Shown: one piece after another, positions 7,294 through 23,288 of the stretch
How the letters are laid out: each line of letters starts with the position of its first letter
Numbering within the stretch: the first letter of the stretch is position 1
From: an uncultured Prochlorococcus sp.
GTDB lineage: Bacteria; Cyanobacteriota; Cyanobacteriia; PCC-6307; Cyanobiaceae
DNA: 46,940 nucleotides
Assembly: GCA_902624085.1 (NCBI GenBank)
Contig: CACNWD010000007.1
Location: 1-46,940 of the forward strand
Direction of reading: 5' to 3'
The notes under the pieces: generated by a model
Told to the model about the DNA's origin: nothing
The model's database searches: none
The model's input: only the letters and a program-made list of their open reading frames with translations
Translations under genes and position numbers: made by a program

Positions 7294-8397
7294 ATGACTT
7301 TTGAGAAACCTAAAAATATTCTAATTACTGGTGGATTAGGTTTTATTGGCAGTAATCTTATAAGAAAATTACTTCTGAGTACTAGTCATAAAATATTTAA
7401 TGTAGATTTTAATGGTTATGCTAGTAGCAATGATGCACTTTTAGATTTATTTTCCAAAAATGATGACTTTTTAGAAAGATACAAATACTTCAATATTGAT
7501 CTAAGTAAATATAGCAAAGTTGAAAAAATATTAAATGATATAAATCCTGATTCAATATTTCATTTGGCAGCTGAATCTCATGTGGACAGATCAATTGATG
7601 ATCCTAATCCTTTTATAAAGAGTAATATACTGGGAACATATAATTTGCTTGAAGTCTCAAGATCATTTTTCAATAACCTTTCTTCTAAAAGAAAAAATGA
7701 ATTTAGATTTTTGCATATAAGTACTGATGAGGTATTTGGAAGTTTAGGTGAAGTTGGTTTGTTTAATGAAGAAAGTAATTATGATCCAAGAAGTCCATAT
7801 TCTGCTTCAAAAGCATCTAGTGACCATTTAGTTAAAGCGTGGTTTCACACGTATGATTTACCTACAATTATTTGTAATTGCAGTAATAATTATGGGCCAT
7901 GGCAATTCCCTGAAAAATTTATTCCAAATATTGTCTTAAAAGCATTAAATGGTGAATTTATCCCTATTTATGGTGATGGCAAAAATGTACGCGATTGGCT
8001 TTATGTAGAAGATCATGTTGATGCTTTAATTAGTATATTTTTAGATGCTTCCCCGGGATCAAGTTTTTGTATAGGTGGCAATAATGAGAGAACCAATATA
8101 GAACTAGCTCTTTATATATGCAATTACCTAGATGATATTAATCCTGGTAAAAATAAATATTCAAATTTAATCAAATTTGTTGATGATAGACCTGGGCATG
8201 ATAGAAGATATGGCATAGACTCAACAAAAATAAAAAGTTTGCTTGATTGGGAAGAGAAATACAGCTTTGAAAAAGGTATTAAAAAGACAATAAATTGGTA
8301 TTTAAAAAATAGATTTTGGTGTCAAAAAATGTTAAATAAATCTAAGTATAAAGGTGAGAGATTAGGCATAAATTTAAAAAATTATTTAGAGGAATAA
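7294..8397 (+). CDS. rfbB: dTDP-glucose 4,6-dehydratase (RmlB)
   Basis: This extended SDR converts dTDP-glucose to dTDP-4-keto-6-deoxyglucose using tightly bound NAD+. GGLGFIGS at 13-20 is the cofactor site. HLAAESHVDRSI (90-101) is highly characteristic of RmlB. STDEVFG at 143-149 holds the catalytic Thr-Asp-Glu, and Y169-SAS-K173 is the YxxxK pair. NCSNNYGPWQFPEKFIP and GDGKNVRDWLYVEDH are further RmlB blocks. Length 367 aa is normal. It is 34 bases after rfbA and probably co-transcribed. It ends 5 bases before the convergent DUF268 gene, leaving almost no intergenic terminator. Confidence 0.97.
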   Translation: MTFEKPKNILITGGLGFIGSNLIRKLLLSTSHKIFNVDFNGYASSNDALLDLFSKNDDFLERYKYFNIDLSKYSKVEKILNDINPDSIFHLAAESHVDRSIDDPNPFIKSNILGTYNLLEVSRSFFNNLSSKRKNEFRFLHISTDEVFGSLGEVGLFNEESNYDPRSPYSASKASSDHLVKAWFHTYDLPTIICNCSNNYGPWQFPEKFIPNIVLKALNGEFIPIYGDGKNVRDWLYVEDHVDALISIFLDASPGSSFCIGGNNERTNIELALYICNYLDDINPGKNKYSNLIKFVDDRPGHDRRYGIDSTKIKSLLDWEEKYSFEKGIKKTINWYLKNRFWCQKMLNKSKYKGERLGINLKNYLEE

Positions 8398-8401
8398 ACT
8401 A

Positions 8402-9244
8402 TTATGAGATTTCTTTTTTTAAGGTCCAAATAGCACAACCATGATTTAGATAAAAGCTATTTTTATAATCTATTTGTGTTAAGTCATTAATTTTGTATAA
8501 GTCACCTTTATCATCAACATAGGCAAATTCCTCTACAGTAAGATTGCAATTTCTAAAGATTTCAAATGCTTCTCCAAGACTTATTATTCTATGAGCGTTG
8601 AATTGAATTCTTCCCTTTTGACCTAAAGGGTGTGATAAGTAAAGTATCCCACTTACTGATAAAAGCTTAGATAAATTATTTATTGCTTTCAAATGTCCTA
8701 GATAATCGATTGGGTCCCCAAATCTGCCTAAACCCATATGTTCTATTGCATGCAAACAACTAATTGATTTAAATTTTTTCAGCTTAGAGCACTCATTTTC
8801 ATCCAAAAGATTTATTTGAATAAAGTCACAATTTTCATTTTTAATGTCTAATGGTCTGATATCTCCAATTAAAAGTTTTTGTTCAAATGATAGTAAATGT
8901 GATACGAAGCCATCTATTCTACTTGCGATATCGAGATGAATTTCTGGTGATTTTTTGAAAATTTTATTCGCAACTAATAAATCCTGATGGTAATAATGCC
9001 CTGAAGCAGAACCTGATTCTTTTTGAGGGTCATATATTTCAGGAAGGGGTTTTGAAAATTTTACCGCTGAAGGGAATTTGGAATATTTGCCACTACTTTT
9101 TTTAATTTGAAGGTATAGTTTAGATAAATTCATTAAATATTTAGGAGTACCTATCAAATTCTGTATAGGGGCAATAGGATTTATTCCAAAATATTTCAAT
9201 AAATAAATAAATATAGATTTTAAACTTTTAATTTTATTTTTCAT
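8402..9244 (-). CDS. DUF268 family protein (probable methyltransferase-fold protein)
   Basis: The 280-aa protein resembles DUF268 members found in polysaccharide loci. SGHYYHQDLLVANKIFKKSPEIHLDIASRI spans the region where a Rossmann methyltransferase would start, with LDIASRIDG in the position of the SAM-binding loop. SCLHAIEHMGLGRFGDPID is a conserved block in the middle, and NAHRIISLGEAFEIF follows. The biochemical role of DUF268 is not known. The weak methyltransferase-like layout is inference. It is convergent with rfbB (4-base gap) and stands alone. The N-terminal 35 residues are basic and hydrophobic, which may indicate peripheral membrane binding. Confidence 0.75.
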   Translation of the reverse strand: MKNKIKSLKSIFIYLLKYFGINPIAPIQNLIGTPKYLMNLSKLYLQIKKSSGKYSKFPSAVKFSKPLPEIYDPQKESGSASGHYYHQDLLVANKIFKKSPEIHLDIASRIDGFVSHLLSFEQKLLIGDIRPLDIKNENCDFIQINLLDENECSKLKKFKSISCLHAIEHMGLGRFGDPIDYLGHLKAINNLSKLLSVSGILYLSHPLGQKGRIQFNAHRIISLGEAFEIFRNCNLTVEEFAYVDDKGDLYKINDLTQIDYKNSFYLNHGCAIWTLKKEIS

Positions 9245-9448
9245 TTTTTATAAAAATAAAGGTTTTACTTAATTTTTTAAAGTTTTTCGAGGTTGAGCTT
9301 TAATAAGGTAAAACAACTTTTAAAATTTAAATATAACATGATTAATGGAGTAATTTCTTTTACTAAATATAGTTTTAAAATAAGATAAGGAATCTGAAGG
9401 TTAAATTTCTAAATTTTTTCAACTAACCGATAAAGTTCAAAAAAAAGT

Positions 9449-10312
9449 TTATAGTTTCAAAAAAGTCTTTAATATTTGTAAAATTTTGTTTATTATTCTT
9501 CTAAATAAATTTGATTTAGTCCAACTTACCTCCCAATGATGAATAGCTAAAGATTCATTTGTGATAAATTCCTTTACTTTTAATATTTTAGATGACAACG
9601 CAAAAGAAGGTAAAGGGTAAAAGAAATCTGAAGGTAACATTAGAGTATTCATTTTTTCGTTATGGCTGAGACTAAAAAATACTTTTGAAAAAATATATGG
9701 ACCACTTGAGTGCATAATTTGCATGGGATCTTTAAAGTTTTTTGGTATATAAATCGCATTAATTGTTTTTTCGAGAATTATTGAATTTGGCTTTGAAATT
9801 ATAATAGAATTTGAAATAGAAGGACGATAAGCAAAACCTACAGAATTAACGAATTCGTAAGTTAGAAAATAATCAGGTAATTTTCCTAAACACTCAAAAT
9901 CTGTATCTGCATAAACCCCGCCAAACTTATTAAGTATTTCATATCTGGCGATATCACTTTTATATCCTAGATTTGATGTGCAATAATAAGCATCTTTGTT
10001 TACAAGTTCTAAATTATCAATCATTTCATCGTCCCACAAAATGTATTCCCAAGAGGGATTATGCTGTCTCCATGTTTTCATCCATATTTTATATTTTTTG
10101 GGTAATTTTTTACCACCAATCCAAATTTGGTGGATTTTCTTTGGGATTAATTGAGGATATAATTTTCTTTCTTCAAAATTTTTTGAGATTAAACTTTTAT
10201 CATAAAGATTAGCTAAATTCTCCCATTCTTCTATGCATTCTATTTTTGAGTGAAAATCCCATATAAATTTGCTAGATTTTGCAAAACCAGATTCAAAAAA
10301 AGAATTTCTCAA
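9449..10312 (-). CDS. GT32-like glycosyltransferase with intact DXD motif
   Basis: The 287-aa protein has LIPKKIHQIWIGGKKLP at 55-71, the family's N-terminal signature. It also has PSWEYILWDD (86-95) and KSDIARYEILNKFGGVYADTD (118-138), with the metal-binding Asp-x-Asp at 136-138. It is the better-conserved of the two GT32-type genes in this island; the other (1430-2263) lacks the second Asp. It should transfer a hexose (Man, Glc or Gal type) to a surface glycan in the cytoplasm. The minus-strand gene is isolated: 204 bases to DUF268 downstream and a 439-base gap upstream. The last 25 residues are hydrophobic and basic, suggesting membrane contact. Confidence 0.9.
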   Translation of the reverse strand: MRNSFFESGFAKSSKFIWDFHSKIECIEEWENLANLYDKSLISKNFEERKLYPQLIPKKIHQIWIGGKKLPKKYKIWMKTWRQHNPSWEYILWDDEMIDNLELVNKDAYYCTSNLGYKSDIARYEILNKFGGVYADTDFECLGKLPDYFLTYEFVNSVGFAYRPSISNSIIISKPNSIILEKTINAIYIPKNFKDPMQIMHSSGPYIFSKVFFSLSHNEKMNTLMLPSDFFYPLPSFALSSKILKVKEFITNESLAIHHWEVSWTKSNLFRRIINKILQILKTFLKL

Positions 10313-10751
10313 ACTATAAAGATTTTCATTAGTAATATTTAACCATAAAATTTGAATTAATGTTAACAGATTAAATTAAAAATTTTTACAGCAATATGAA
10401 GCAGAATTTAGCTTTATTGTAAGCTTTAAAGCTATATCCGTCTAAAACTTAATTTATGAGAATAGCAGTAATAAATCACTATTACTTATTGAGATTTAAT
10501 CAAAAAGAGGAGATTTAAACCCCTAATCCCTAGAAACTATGGAGATAAGCAATAAATCTATAACTAGGGTTTTTTCAGTATATTGACCTAAGAGATTACA
10601 ATATCACTAATGACAAACGGAATAACCATTTATATGAGTTTTCTTAAAGTAGAACTTATAAAAAATCTATTGCTAATGTAAAATAGTTTTTTGAAACTAT
10701 ATGAATTCATGACAAGTCAGTCAAATCTTGAAGTAAAAAAACTTTATTCAT
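10313..10751. other. 439-base intergenic stretch with a 20-codon remnant-like ORF, a hairpin-T site and an alternative upstream start
   Basis: No full gene is present. A 20-codon plus-strand ORF at 10456-10518 begins MRIAVINHYY, which looks like the first strand of a GT4 glycosyltransferase, and then stops, so it may be a gene remnant. A hairpin with six T follows at 10528-10575. An ATG at 10709 opens a frame that enters the A16 tract of the next gene one base out of register. The rest is featureless AT-rich sequence and must hold the divergent promoters. Confidence 0.5.
10528..10575 (+). terminator. Weak intrinsic terminator-like hairpin
   Basis: CCCTAG at 10528-10533 pairs with CTAGGG at 10564-10569, which is followed immediately by six T on the plus strand. 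AAACCC just upstream (10517-10522) could pair with the same 3' arm in an alternative fold. The loop is long (30 bases), so the structure is weaker than a classical terminator. It follows the 20-codon remnant-like ORF, consistent with being the 3' end of a decayed gene. Confidence 0.4.
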
Positions 10752-11789
10752 TTGAAAAAAAAAAAAAAAATAATAATAGTAGAACTAAATGGTGGGACTG
10801 GCAATCAACTTTTTCAACTTGCGACTTGCTTTACTCTCGCTAAAAACAATCATAGAAATGCTTTTTACTCGACAAGACTTTTGGGTGAATTTCGTAAATT
10901 AGAAGTTAAAGAAATAGCTAAAGAATTAAATATTAGTGAATACAAGTTCTCAAAAAAAATTGATTTGCAAATAATTGATGGAGATGAACTCAATCATCCA
11001 TGTATATTTAGCAAATACCCTCTTACAAATTTTTTACCTGATAAAGATATTTTATTTAGTACTAGCTTACAAAATTATAGAATTTTTTCTAATAAATTCA
11101 TTTCTATAATTAAGGATAAAGCAATTTTAGATTCTCCAAAAATAAATATTCAAAATAATTTCATATCTATTCATTTAAGAGAACTCCATGCCTCTGGAAC
11201 TAACAAGCCCTTAAAATGGGTTGACAACCTAAATATTAATTATTACGAAAGATCTCTTAAAGAAGCTTTATCTTATTTGAAAAAAAAACAAATTAAGGAA
11301 AAAAAATGTTTGATCTTTAAGGATACTTTTAAGGATGTCACAAAATCTAATTTATTAGTACCACTTAAGAAAATCTTGAAAGAAAATAATTTCGAAATTT
11401 TTGACGGAGATGCATTATGTAATACAACTTGGGAAGTCATATCTCTAATGAGTTCTTCAAAGGTTGTAATTACGAGCAATTCATCATTTAGTTGGTGGGG
11501 TGCTTTTTTATCAGAAGGATTAAAGATATCACCAATACTCTCTTTGTGGGAAGGTTGTCTTTGTACTCCTGATGAATGGTTACAAATAAATGATGGAAAT
11601 ATTAATCCATCTATTTGGAACAAAGAAGCTATTTTTGGGAGAATAATTTTTAGAAAAAAATTATTTTTTACAAAAAATATACTATATAAAAAATTAAAAC
11701 ACTTATTTACTTTTTATCTCGTCCCAAAAACATTTCTTTCGATCTTTTCTAAATTTAAATCCTTAAAGAGAAAAACTTTATTGTCATAA
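10752..11789 (+). CDS. GT11-like glycosyltransferase (alpha-1,2-fucosyltransferase family) starting in an A16 tract
   Basis: The 345-aa protein has the GT11 start ELNGGTGNQLFQLATC (11-26) and the C-terminal signature TSNSSFSWWGAFLS (241-254), which together identify the alpha-1,2-fucosyltransferase family using GDP-fucose. The central HxRRxDY motif is degenerate: HLRELHAS at 141-148. The frame can start only at a TTG (10752), giving MKKKKKIII. No ATG or GTG lies in frame upstream before a stop. Bases 10755-10770 are 16 consecutive A. A good ATG at 10709 is out of frame with the enzyme by exactly one base: losing one A would fuse it to the enzyme. Expression may therefore depend on tract length. 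The sugar specificity is inferred from family only. Confidence 0.87.
   Translation: MKKKKKIIIVELNGGTGNQLFQLATCFTLAKNNHRNAFYSTRLLGEFRKLEVKEIAKELNISEYKFSKKIDLQIIDGDELNHPCIFSKYPLTNFLPDKDILFSTSLQNYRIFSNKFISIIKDKAILDSPKINIQNNFISIHLRELHASGTNKPLKWVDNLNINYYERSLKEALSYLKKKQIKEKKCLIFKDTFKDVTKSNLLVPLKKILKENNFEIFDGDALCNTTWEVISLMSSSKVVITSNSSFSWWGAFLSEGLKISPILSLWEGCLCTPDEWLQINDGNINPSIWNKEAIFGRIIFRKKLFFTKNILYKKLKHLFTFYLVPKTFLSIFSKFKSLKRKTLLS
10755..10770 (+). repeat. A16 homopolymer at the 5' end of the GT11-like gene
   Basis: Sixteen consecutive A occur immediately after the TTG start codon. Such tracts are prone to polymerase slippage and are a common basis of phase variation in surface-glycan transferases. 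They are also prone to sequencing or assembly length errors, so the exact length is uncertain. Confidence 0.95.
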
Positions 11790-11854
11790 AATTAAAATTT
11801 TCAGATCATTGAAATTTAATCAATTATACTCTAATTAATGTCTAATATTTTATT

Positions 11855-12832
11855 TTGAAAAAAGCATTGGTTTTGGGAGGAGGGGGATTTATTGGTCACC
11901 ATCTTGTAAATAAATTGAAAGAAGAAGGATATTGGGTTAGAGCTGCTGATATAAAAAAACCTGCTTATGAAGATTCAAAAGCTGACGATTTTTGCTTAGG
12001 AGACTTATCTGAACAAAGTTTCTGTTTAAATGTCATTGATAGAGATTTTGATGAAGTTTATCAATTGGCTGCTGATATGGGTGGAGCTGGCTATATATTT
12101 ACAGGAGAGAATGATGCATCTGTAATGTATAATTCCGCTTCAATAAACTTGAATGTTCTTGAGTTTTGCAGAATAAAAAATAATAATAATATTTTTTATT
12201 CATCAAGTGCTTGTGTTTATAACGAATTTAATCAGTTAGACCCAAATAATCCAAATTGTGAAGAATCAAGCGCATATCCAGCCAATCCAGATAGTGAATA
12301 CGGATGGGAAAAGTTATTTTCTGAAAGAATATATCTAGCTTATAATAGGAATTATAATATGACCAATAAGGTTGCTAGATATCATAATATCTTTGGGCCT
12401 CTAGGAGCATGGAATAATGGTAAGGAAAAATCCCCAGCTGCATTATGCAGAAAGGTTGCTCAAGCACCTAATGGAGGTTCTATAGAAATTTGGGGTGATG
12501 GGGAACAAACAAGATCATTCTTATATGTCGATGAATGTCTTGAGGGAACTACAAAATTACTGAGATCAAATCTGTCCGGCCCATATAATATAGGGTCTGA
12601 AGAAATGATTTCAATTAACGATTTTGTAGATTTGATTTCTGATATCGCAGGTAAAACAATAAAAAAAATTCATATTGATGGTCCACTTGGAGTTAGAGGA
12701 AGAAATTCTAATAACAAATTGATAAAAGATGAATTAGGTTGGGCTCCCAGTCAATCTTTGAAAATAGGAATAGAAAAAACCTACAAATGGATTGAAGAAA
12801 AGGTTATGAAAGGAGAAATTGACATTAAATAA
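11855..12832 (+). CDS. GDP-mannose 3,5-epimerase-like extended SDR
   Basis: The 325-aa protein matches the plant-type GDP-mannose 3,5-epimerase pattern closely. It has GGGGFIG at 8-14 for NAD, LAADMGGAGYIFTG at 71-84, YSSSACVYNEF at 115-125 with the catalytic Cys120, and Y149-GWE-K153 as YxxxK. ARYHNIFGPLGAW, GDGEQTRSFLYVDEC and a late GVRGRNSNNKLIK block also match. The family interconverts GDP-D-mannose with GDP-L-galactose and GDP-L-gulose. The start is TTG at 11855; the only nearby ATG upstream leads to a stop within seven codons. It follows the GT11-like gene by 65 bases. A GDP-hexose epimerase beside a GDP-sugar-type transferase suggests that it supplies that enzyme's donor, but this is inference. 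Confidence 0.9.
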   Translation: MKKALVLGGGGFIGHHLVNKLKEEGYWVRAADIKKPAYEDSKADDFCLGDLSEQSFCLNVIDRDFDEVYQLAADMGGAGYIFTGENDASVMYNSASINLNVLEFCRIKNNNNIFYSSSACVYNEFNQLDPNNPNCEESSAYPANPDSEYGWEKLFSERIYLAYNRNYNMTNKVARYHNIFGPLGAWNNGKEKSPAALCRKVAQAPNGGSIEIWGDGEQTRSFLYVDECLEGTTKLLRSNLSGPYNIGSEEMISINDFVDLISDIAGKTIKKIHIDGPLGVRGRNSNNKLIKDELGWAPSQSLKIGIEKTYKWIEEKVMKGEIDIK

Positions 12833-12985
12833 CTTACTATAATAGAAAAAAAGGATCTTCTATAAAAGACACAAAGCATATTTATTTTTTAAATATGTGG
12901 TGAATGCAAATCAAGAGGAATCCATAAAAATTATTTATTTTTAAAAAAAATCTAGAAATCTAATTAAAAAGTGTGGTTAAGGAAA

Positions 12986-13654
12986 ATGAAAGATGAAAAA
13001 GAATGGAACGCTTTTTATTCAAAACCAAATCCATGGGGGATCGATGGATCCTTAGCAGATTTTACAAGAATAAAAATAATTAATAATTACTTCAAAAATA
13101 ATAAATTTAAAAATGGAATTGATATAGCTTGTGGAGAAGGATTCTTACTTAACAATCTAGATTTCATAGAAACAAAAACAGGAGTTGATATTTCAAAAAA
13201 TGCAATCAATAGAGCAGAGAAAAAATATCCGAAAATTGATTTTTATGTTGGTAATCCTTTCTTAGATTTTGAATTGGATCAGAAATTTGAATTCGTTTCT
13301 TGTTTTGAAGCAGTTTACTATCTAGATACTTTGGAAGAGAGGAAAAAAGCTTTAAAAAACTTATTAAGATATGGCAAAAAAGATGCCATATATGCTTTTT
13401 CAGTTGTAACCATTGACTCTAATAAATTTAGAGAATATTTTACCCAGGAAAGTTTTTTAAACTTATTATCAGAAGAATATAAGGTTTTAAAAATCGTAAA
13501 CTTAAATGGTTCATATAAGCTTCCAATTAAAATTCTCAGAAAGATTCTCTCAATATTTAATAAAAAAATTGCAGCAAAATTATTTTTTAAGTACATGATC
13601 AATGCAAAGAAGGATGATATATATCAACAACTCTTTATTTGCAAAAGTTTATAA
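12986..13654 (+). CDS. SAM-dependent methyltransferase, class I
   Basis: About 222 aa from the ATG at 12986. A GTG at 12971 in the same frame would add five residues, but the ATG gives the natural start MKDEKEWNAFYSKPNPWG. NGIDIACGEGFLLNNLD holds the glycine-rich SAM-binding motif I (DxxCGxG). A TGVDISKNAINRAEKKYP block is motif post-I with the acidic SAM-ribose contact, and SCFEAVYYLD is motif II-III. The layout resembles NodS/Methyltransf_25-type enzymes that methylate small molecules or sugars. In this island the likely role is methylation of a glycan or nucleotide-sugar. It is 153 bases from the epimerase gene and is followed by a long gene-poor stretch. Confidence 0.82.
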   Translation: MKDEKEWNAFYSKPNPWGIDGSLADFTRIKIINNYFKNNKFKNGIDIACGEGFLLNNLDFIETKTGVDISKNAINRAEKKYPKIDFYVGNPFLDFELDQKFEFVSCFEAVYYLDTLEERKKALKNLLRYGKKDAIYAFSVVTIDSNKFREYFTQESFLNLLSEEYKVLKIVNLNGSYKLPIKILRKILSIFNKKIAAKLFFKYMINAKKDDIYQQLFICKSL

Positions 13655-14050
13655 CTCAAAACTAATAAATATCTAATAATAATTTATAAAATCTAATTAT
13701 TTTGAAAGAAAAATTAATTTCAACCTATCTAATTAGTAAAGTTGCACTAACTCTTTAATTAATATCTGGCTAATATAGATGCGCAAAACCCTTGCCGCGC
13801 ATATTACGCAAAGACCAGCCAAAGCTTTGTTGAGGCTTGACAGCTTCTTGTAATTTTTTTTCAAGATAAGCTTTGGCATAGCCTTTAATTATTAAAAATA
13901 CTTTAAACCACTTTACCTATTTGCAAGGGTTACTGCTCGCAGAGTTGCTTGCAGAGAGCACATATTAATACATATTCATACACTAGAATGCGTCATGTAT
14001 TCCAATATATTTTCGTTCAAAATAATTGGTATAACAAACTTAGATCTTGA
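13655..14050. other. Gene-poor stretch between the methyltransferase and tRNA-Ala
   Basis: The only coding trace is the minus-strand remnant at 13770-13916. Several imperfect inverted repeats lie inside or beside it: ATGCGC/GCGCAT near 13779-13803, CCAAAGCTT/AAGCTTTGG around 13818-13877, and TGCTC/GAGCA around 13932-13960. The G+C-rich core near 13779-13851 stands out from the AT-rich flanks. I see no intact gene. Confidence 0.6.
13770..13916 (-). pseudogene. 3' remnant of an unidentified protein gene, locally GC-rich
   Basis: The minus strand is open for 48 codons between a TAG (13917-13919) and the final TAG (13770-13772), but it has no ATG, GTG or TTG near its 5' end. The decoded peptide is protein-like, ending QSFGWSLRNMRGKGFAHLY, with a basic, lysine-rich start. 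By hand count the 73 bases at 13779-13851 contain about 37 G or C, far above the local level. This suggests DNA from a different source or an older, less AT-driven gene end. It lies just beyond the 3' end of tRNA-Ala. I do not recognise the family. A 24-codon ATG ORF also exists on the plus strand over the same bases, so the coding strand is not certain. Confidence 0.5.
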
Positions 14051-14123
14051 TGGAGCCAAGCGGACTCGAACCGCTGACCCCCTGCATGCCATGCAGGTGC
14101 TCTACCAACTGAGCTATGGCCCC
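14051..14123 (-). tRNA. tRNA-Ala (anticodon GGC)
   Basis: The minus strand folds as a complete 73-base cloverleaf without encoded CCA. The acceptor arm is GGGGCCA paired with TGGCTCC, with discriminator A. The D-arm is AGCTC-AGTTGGTA-GAGC. The anticodon stem CCTGC/GCAGG encloses the loop ATGGCAT with anticodon GGC, and the T-arm contains GGTTCGAGTCC. Anticodon GGC reads alanine GCC/GCU codons. It sits inside the polysaccharide island, and tRNA genes are common borders of Prochlorococcus islands. Confidence 0.97.
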
Positions 14124-14496
14124 ATGTAGTAAAACAACAGTTATATCAATCTTAAGATTTATTCGTAACTGCGGTTATTACCATAGTACTTTATAGAGTT
14201 TAATAATAGATTATACAGTCTGAAATATGGCTAAAAATAAATCGCATATATTTTTATTTTAAAACTAAAAGGATAAAATTAATAAAAACTTAATTTAAGA
14301 AAATATAAATTAGTCTTTAAAAAAATTTTTTAAATTTGATCCTTTTAATAAGGAATGAATTGCAGAAGCCATACATAAAGTCATTAAAGAAAATAATAAA
14401 ATTTAATAAAAAATGGTTTTAAATATTAACAAACCATTTTATATGGAAAGAAATTTATAATTAGGAATATTATTTATATTGAAAATCAATATTATT
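14124..14496. other. 373-base AT-rich gap upstream of tRNA-Ala
   Basis: This stretch contains the tRNA promoter region and no convincing gene. A 24-codon minus-strand ORF at 14310-14384 starts ATG and begins MTLCMASAIHSLL. It is too short and lacks a clear ribosome binding site, so I do not call it. A possible AT-rich stem (AATGGTTT...AAACCATT near 14412-14441) lies close to the end of the following minus-strand gene and could help terminate it. Confidence 0.4.
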
Positions 14497-18733: not shown

Positions 18734-19120
18734 ATGATCAAAAAATTTACAATATTTACTTTAGATCTTAAAAAAAAAAGATTTTTGCTAACAGCTTTTT
18801 TTGTTTGGGGGATAAGTCAAATTACATTGCAGATATTCATCTTATATTTTCCAACAATATTAGCAACCTCATTTAGCCAAATAATTTATATAGTTCTTGG
18901 ATTTCATTTATATAGTTCAAAGGTATTTAAAATTAAAAAACGTAATAATTACCATATTCAAAGATTTTTAATGATGTCATTAATATTATGGTTTATAAAT
19001 TTTTATGGAATTAATTTCTTGAATATCCTTATAGTAAATAAAAATATATGTGCCACTTTAATGATTCCTATTCTCGCTATATCTTCATTTTCTATGCAAA
19101 AATATTTAATTTTTAAATAA
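18734..19120 (+). CDS. GtrA-like four-helix membrane protein (putative lipid-linked sugar flippase)
   Basis: The 128-aa protein has four hydrophobic segments (about 18-38, 42-56, 78-97 and 103-122) and ends in a FSMQKYLIFK tail, like the conserved Q/RKFVF end of GtrA (PF04138). GtrA proteins are proposed to flip undecaprenyl-phosphate-glucose to the periplasm. Divergent placement next to a GtrB-like transferase supports the assignment, and length is in the family range. The N-terminal 17 residues are basic. The identity is based on topology, tail and context rather than high sequence identity. Confidence 0.75.
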   Translation: MIKKFTIFTLDLKKKRFLLTAFFVWGISQITLQIFILYFPTILATSFSQIIYIVLGFHLYSSKVFKIKKRNNYHIQRFLMMSLILWFINFYGINFLNILIVNKNICATLMIPILAISSFSMQKYLIFK

Positions 19121-22361: not shown

Positions 22362-23288
22362 TTAAGAAAAAAGGCAAGCCAAAAGAGCTTGTTGAACATG
22401 CATTCTATTTTCTGCCTGTTCAAAAATCCTACTATTATTGGAATCAATTACCTCATCAGTTATCTCTTTTGATCTATAAGCAGGAAGGCAATGAAGAATA
22501 ATTACATCATCATCAGCTTGACTTAACAAATCACTGTTTACAGTAAATCCACTAAAGTCTTTATCTTTAATCTCTTTTTTATTTTCTTCGCCCATTGAAG
22601 ACCAAACATCTGTATAAAGAACATTTGCCCCTGGTAAAGCACTAGCAAGGTCATTAGTGATTCTCAATAAATCATCATTTTTATAAAGCTTCCTTGCTTT
22701 ATTAACAACCTCTTTATCTGGCTCGTAGCCTGGGGGACATGCAATTCTAACTTCAACTCCTAATAATGCCCCACATAAGATAAGAGAATTAGCAACATTA
22801 TTACCATCTCCGATAAAGGTCAAAACTACTTTTTTAAAATCATGAAATTCCTCTTTAATAGTAAAAAAATCGGCTAGAGCCTGACATGGATGCTCTAAAT
22901 CTGTTAGTGCATTAATAACTGGTTTACTAGACCATTTTGCATATTCATTTAAATCAGACTGATGAAAAGTTCTTATTGCAATCGCATCACAATATCGACT
23001 TAAAACTCTCGCCGTATCTTTAATTGGTTCGCCTCTACCGATTTGCGAAGTCGTCGGATTCAAATCAATAGTAGTCCCTCCTAGTCTTGACATAGCCACC
23101 TGGAAACTAACTCTTGTTCGAGTAGAAGACTTATCAAAAACCAATCCAAGAACTTTGTCTTTTAGTTCAATATTAAGTTCTTTATTTTTAAAGTTTTTCG
23201 CAAGTTCAAATATATTGAGAATTTCCTTTTCTGAAGTATCCAAGCTTGATAAAAAATCCCTGCTATAAAGATTCTTTGGTTTGAGCAT
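22362..23288 (-). CDS. argF: Ornithine carbamoyltransferase
   Basis: The enzyme condenses carbamoyl phosphate with ornithine to citrulline in arginine synthesis. The 308-aa protein has the carbamoyl-phosphate site SSTRTR at 54-59, HPCQALAD at 133-140, the ornithine-loop DVWSSMG at 227-233 and the catalytic-Cys motif HCLPA at 266-270. Length and motifs are complete, so it is catalytically typical. It is transcribed with ftsH upstream (27-base gap) and lexA downstream, all on the minus strand. Aspartate carbamoyltransferase is excluded because the SMG loop and HCLP motif are OTC-specific. Confidence 0.98.
   Translation of the reverse strand: MLKPKNLYSRDFLSSLDTSEKEILNIFELAKNFKNKELNIELKDKVLGLVFDKSSTRTRVSFQVAMSRLGGTTIDLNPTTSQIGRGEPIKDTARVLSRYCDAIAIRTFHQSDLNEYAKWSSKPVINALTDLEHPCQALADFFTIKEEFHDFKKVVLTFIGDGNNVANSLILCGALLGVEVRIACPPGYEPDKEVVNKARKLYKNDDLLRITNDLASALPGANVLYTDVWSSMGEENKKEIKDKDFSGFTVNSDLLSQADDDVIILHCLPAYRSKEITDEVIDSNNSRIFEQAENRMHVQQALLACLFS

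Follow-up and report, generated by a model that had tools for sequence, protein, structure and literature searches.

The window analysed here, a 46,940-nucleotide stretch of a contig from an uncultured Prochlorococcus sp., belongs to a draft genome (G000) of 1.06 Mb in 45 contigs that is 68% complete. Assignment to the genus was supported by the ornithine carbamoyltransferase gene (22362-23288), which is up to 80% identical to its counterparts in named Prochlorococcus genomes. This gene lies beside a surface-polysaccharide cluster that occupies the left 21.7 kb of the window and encodes RmlA- and RmlB-type enzymes, an aminotransferase, epimerases, glycosyltransferases and an ABC exporter. Within the cluster, a forward-strand gene with a TTG start (10752..11789) encodes a 345-amino-acid glycosyltransferase resembling family GT11, the family to which Helicobacter pylori futC belongs. 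The protein matched the Pfam model Glyco_transf_11 (PF01531) with 30.9 bits against a curated cut-off of 23.9 (E 2.2e-7), and its two nearest GT11 relatives also exceeded this cut-off. Two motifs of the family are present, GGTGNQLFQ at the N-terminus (GGxGNQ) and SNSSFSWWGA (SNSxxSWW; SNSSFSWWG in our protein). The donor-binding motif HxRRxD had no match, HLREL standing in its place; the protein and both relatives read HLRELH, with the first Arg kept. Because the donor motif is not matched, we refer to the enzyme as GT11-like rather than as a fucosyltransferase; a fucosyl donor is possible. The next gene (11855..12832, forward strand) encodes a protein of the NAD-dependent epimerase/dehydratase family, which scored far below the cut-offs of GDP-L-fucose synthase and the other models that it matched. 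An earlier note on this DNA had called the gene fucosyltransferase-like and brought up fucosylated surface glycans; the family and the setting were right, given the PF01531 match and the polysaccharide cluster, while the name claimed too much in view of HLREL and of the neighbour's low-scoring match. A sequence search of solved structures with the GT11-like protein gave no credible match, an Rfam search of positions 8000-13000 gave none, and a promoter scan around the gene found matches no more numerous than in shuffled sequence.

The GT11-like gene was probably acquired horizontally. An intact tRNA-Ala(GGC) gene is present on the reverse strand at 14049..14124, at the near end of the segment that appears to have been inserted. 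At the far end, on the same strand (10340..10560), a decayed 3' part of tRNA-Ala(GGC) is joined to the sequence that flanks the 3' end of tRNA-Ala in relatives. Alignment of the 10340-10560 flank with the tRNA-Ala 3' flank of four relatives gave scores of 107-126, compared with 51 for the best of 200 shuffles, while the flank of the intact copy did not match that of the four relatives. The T-arm showed the same division, the decayed copy resembling the relatives and the intact copy differing from them. Between the two copies, ~3.5 kb holds the GT11, epimerase and methyltransferase genes. The decayed tRNA-Ala with its native flank thus looks to be the scar of an insertion at the tRNA 3' end that carried the GT11-like gene. 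Tycheposons are cargo elements at tRNA genes in Prochlorococcus, as described second-hand in PMC10872708; because no recombinase gene was identified in the ~3.5 kb inserted segment, we did not classify it as one.

Direct reading of the sequence placed a homopolymer of 16 A (A16; 10755..10770, forward strand) directly after the TTG codon (10752..10754), followed by TAATAATAGTAGAACTA. The tract supplies five AAA (Lys) codons and the first base of ATA; because the genome is a draft, its exact length of 16 is an assembly value. An upstream ATG (10709..10711, forward strand) opens a frame of only 44 codons that reaches the tract shifted by one base. The tract, the TTG and the out-of-register ATG were all as the earlier note had described them. 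The tract was also considered as a terminator or an intergenic relic, and this was ruled out since A16 sits within an open frame. Tract lengths of 15, 16 and 17 were then compared in silico with the natural flanks retained. At A15, ATG 10709 is in the enzyme frame, as is a TTG further upstream; at A16, TTG 10752 is the sole pre-tract start in that frame; at A17, the tract has no in-frame start codon ahead of it. ATG 10709 shares the enzyme frame only at tract lengths divisible by three (A15, A18). The proposal that one-base changes in the tract shift the frame was therefore borne out, and two of the three tract phases stay translatable in principle. In silico, the locus thus combines two properties of a contingency locus: a homopolymer in the start region long enough for instability, and a reading frame that shifts when its length changes.

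TTG 10752 is the likely translation start, because the N-terminus that it gives fits those of the relatives and because the next gene, at 11855, likewise opens with TTG-AAAAAA. The TTG-started protein begins M-K5-IIIVELNGGTGNQLFQ (N-terminus in full, MKKKKKIIIVELNGGTGNQLFQ). The two nearest GT11 relatives, which are distant (38% and 35% identity), start MSNLIIKLRGGTGNQLFQ and MSNLIIKLKGGTGNQLFQ, with neither an A tract nor an extension, so that the tract is not kept in these homologues. By our own start assignments, TTG or GTG opens 6 of the 36 genes in the window. The earlier suggestion that the present tract length is abnormal, forcing translation from TTG or leaving the gene off, is thus not supported, given the frequency of such starts, the TTG-AAAAAA of the next gene and the family-like N-terminus.

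The length of 16 could also be wrong through an error in assembly or amplification; the tract might in truth be A15, for example, with the gene read from ATG 10709. Homopolymers of this length are difficult for PCR-based sequencing, and the genome is an incomplete draft. A CobW-like GTPase gene (named from sequence), whose N-terminus is encoded by ATG plus A9-A12, offers a comparison within the genus. Its frame is kept in 145 of 148 genomes; the out-of-frame tracts (A9, A11 and A12) occur only in G173, G174 and G082, all of them drafts of 60 to 170 contigs. The frame in coding A tracts is under selection, and the rare CobW-like breaks may reflect either faulty assembly or genuine variation. 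Orthologues in G082 (L105) and G158 (L096) carry the same ATG-A12 near position 1501, in frame only in one; the out-of-frame copy has an in-frame TTG upstream. A 500-codon frame in G055 (L103, near position 1501) has an ATG-A12 start that is one base off and reaches TAA at once, with in-frame TTG codons upstream, a variant or an assembly error. At the GT11-like gene, however, the TTG frame is already open at A16 and its N-terminus is family-like, so no correction is needed, and the 16 extra residues of the ATG-started form have no counterpart in relatives. We therefore consider an error in length a distinctly unlikely account of the tract.

The length of the tract was assessed against its own genome and the genus by pattern searches. 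Order-3 Markov simulations of the window produced an A or T run of at least 16 in 3 of 100 cases. G000 contains twelve runs of A10, three of A11 and one of A12, and beyond these a single A16, the sole A run longer than 12. An A10 (18770-18779) lies close to where a second small gene of the polysaccharide cluster begins (18734-19120; 128 amino acids, no Pfam match). Across the genus, runs of A13 or longer are present in 185 of 266 genomes, and 18 of 49 distinct runs of this class, counted by hand among those listed, have at least 16 A. The length of A16 thus stands out within its own genome but not within the genus. In a sample of 30 loci with runs of A13 or longer, with the surrounding genes defined simply as the longest ORFs, the runs were mostly intergenic or abutted start codons, and long A tracts within genes were rare. 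A 57-amino-acid conserved membrane-like protein exemplifies a tract abutting a start: in four species (L038, L040, L063 and L064, near position 1501), a run of A15-A18 ends in the A of the ATG, its position kept and its length differing. A start codon followed directly by A12 occurred 30 times in the 266 genomes, compared with 21 for a mirror control (totals added by hand), at most a mild excess of tracts right after start codons.

The upstream ATG had been taken as a further sign of a switch. Such an ATG, out of frame, within 60 bases upstream and reading into the gene start, is found at 8 of the 36 window genes. A similar layout precedes ssb (recognised from protein sequence), where 144 genomes matched a pattern in which an A-rich spacer follows an upstream ATG and leads to the ssb start. 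The upstream ATG belongs to a conserved ATGAGT, with the A-rich spacer between it and the gene (e.g. L045 and L061, near position 1501). Among 62 distinct sequences, the longest run in the spacer varies between A6 and A15, and the upstream ATG is spread over all three frames (24, 24 and 14 sequences). Because a switch would not be expected at an essential gene such as ssb, the layout alone is silent on switching, and the frame-neutral arrangement at ssb together with the 8 window genes removes the ATG as a sign of one. Neither the TTG start nor the upstream ATG discriminates a switch from an ordinary gene.

If the tract were a true contingency locus, A16 would give the TTG-started enzyme, A15 an ATG-started form with 16 more residues and A17 the off state, with phages or grazers, through selection on the surface glycan, keeping the tract. 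The frames at the three lengths behave accordingly, the tract is an outlier in its genome, and the gene sits in a surface-glycan cluster; surface-sugar genes are where contingency loci are expected. Known systems provide precedents, and it is well established that A runs slip during replication. In Vibrio cholerae O1, poly-A tracts in the O-antigen genes wbeL (A8) and manA (A9) vary and give phage resistance (PMC3441752), and as at our locus the tracts lie within surface-sugar biosynthesis genes where a one-base change shifts the frame. There, however, A8 and A9 lie inside the gene, variants were isolated and reversion of manA was shown, whereas A16 lies at the start codon and is known from one allele; unlike wbeL and manA, the GT11-like locus also retains a start in two of three phases. 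Listeria inlA has its poly-A at the 5' end of the coding gene, as here, and this tract varies ~1,000-fold above point mutation (PMC2831843). More generally, poly(A) in coding genes is found across prokaryotes and enriched at the 5' end, but this overrepresentation is reported mainly up to 7 bases (PMC2831843), compared with the 16 here. The phase-variable futA, futB and futC of H. pylori (PMC2583950) share with our locus a fucosyltransferase-type gene and a homopolymer, which in futA and futB is 5'; their tracts are poly-C rather than poly-A, and length variation was measured between isolates.

Several observations weigh against a contingency locus. A gene translatable in two of three phases is poorly suited to being switched off, the tract is missing from the two nearest GT11 relatives, the like layout at ssb is frame-neutral, and the absence of a clear excess of start-plus-A12 over the mirror control gives no hint of a class of such loci. 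A search of the 266 genus genomes, the genome_contigs set, viral contigs and phages found no second copy of the locus; the viral contigs gave one 24% match, not usable for comparison of tract length. Among the titles and abstracts retrieved on phase variation in Prochlorococcus or cyanobacteria, none reported a homopolymer switch in Prochlorococcus. A contingency locus is a plausible reading, though an unproven one, and overall we regard it as unlikely.

A long A run may also affect transcription. In Escherichia coli and Buchnera, insertions during transcription become exponentially more frequent as A/T runs lengthen, while G/C runs are not prone to them (PMC5574713), and runs of nine A/T already make RNA polymerase slip in bacteria (PMC5009743). 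In Buchnera and Blochmannia, which like our organism have small AT-rich genomes whose genes contain long A runs, the frames of genes with poly-A tracts may be restored by slippage at transcription (PMC5009743, PMC2831843); unlike in those genes, the DNA frame of the GT11-like gene is already open from TTG. Programmed slippage, in which the tract is kept so that one allele yields both the TTG and the ATG form, would draw on the same tendency, increasing with length; since neither the tract nor the leader is conserved in relatives, we hold it to be very improbable. Slippage that is not programmed would nevertheless bear on any switch: RNA polymerase slipping on A16 would mix the mRNA frames from any allele, and a change in tract length would therefore dim the enzyme rather than turn it cleanly off, which weakens the case for a clean switch.

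We favour, with some reservation, an ordinary TTG-started GT11-like gene whose N-terminal lysines happen to be encoded by a long, slippage-prone A run. Replication slippage would be expected to alter the length of A16 more often than average sequence changes, so that frameshift variants would arise; selection for switching would not be required to account for the tract. Against an ordinary gene stands the fact that the only A run longer than 12 in this genome falls inside the coding sequence of a surface-sugar gene, as does the rarity of long tracts within genes in the genus sample.

As they stand, these results are mainly of cautionary use: in the genus, long A runs frequently occur at gene starts, and an out-of-register upstream ATG is no evidence of phase variation. 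It is a long shot that A16 forms a three-state poly-A start switch, with two starts and an off state, on a Prochlorococcus surface glycosyltransferase, kept by cyanophage pressure. Were this so, we would know of no earlier slipped-strand contingency locus in Prochlorococcus. Should tracts of this kind act as switches, the most abundant phototroph could gain and lose resistance to cyanophages without losing genes, and the tract lengths found in existing metagenomes could serve to read that resistance.
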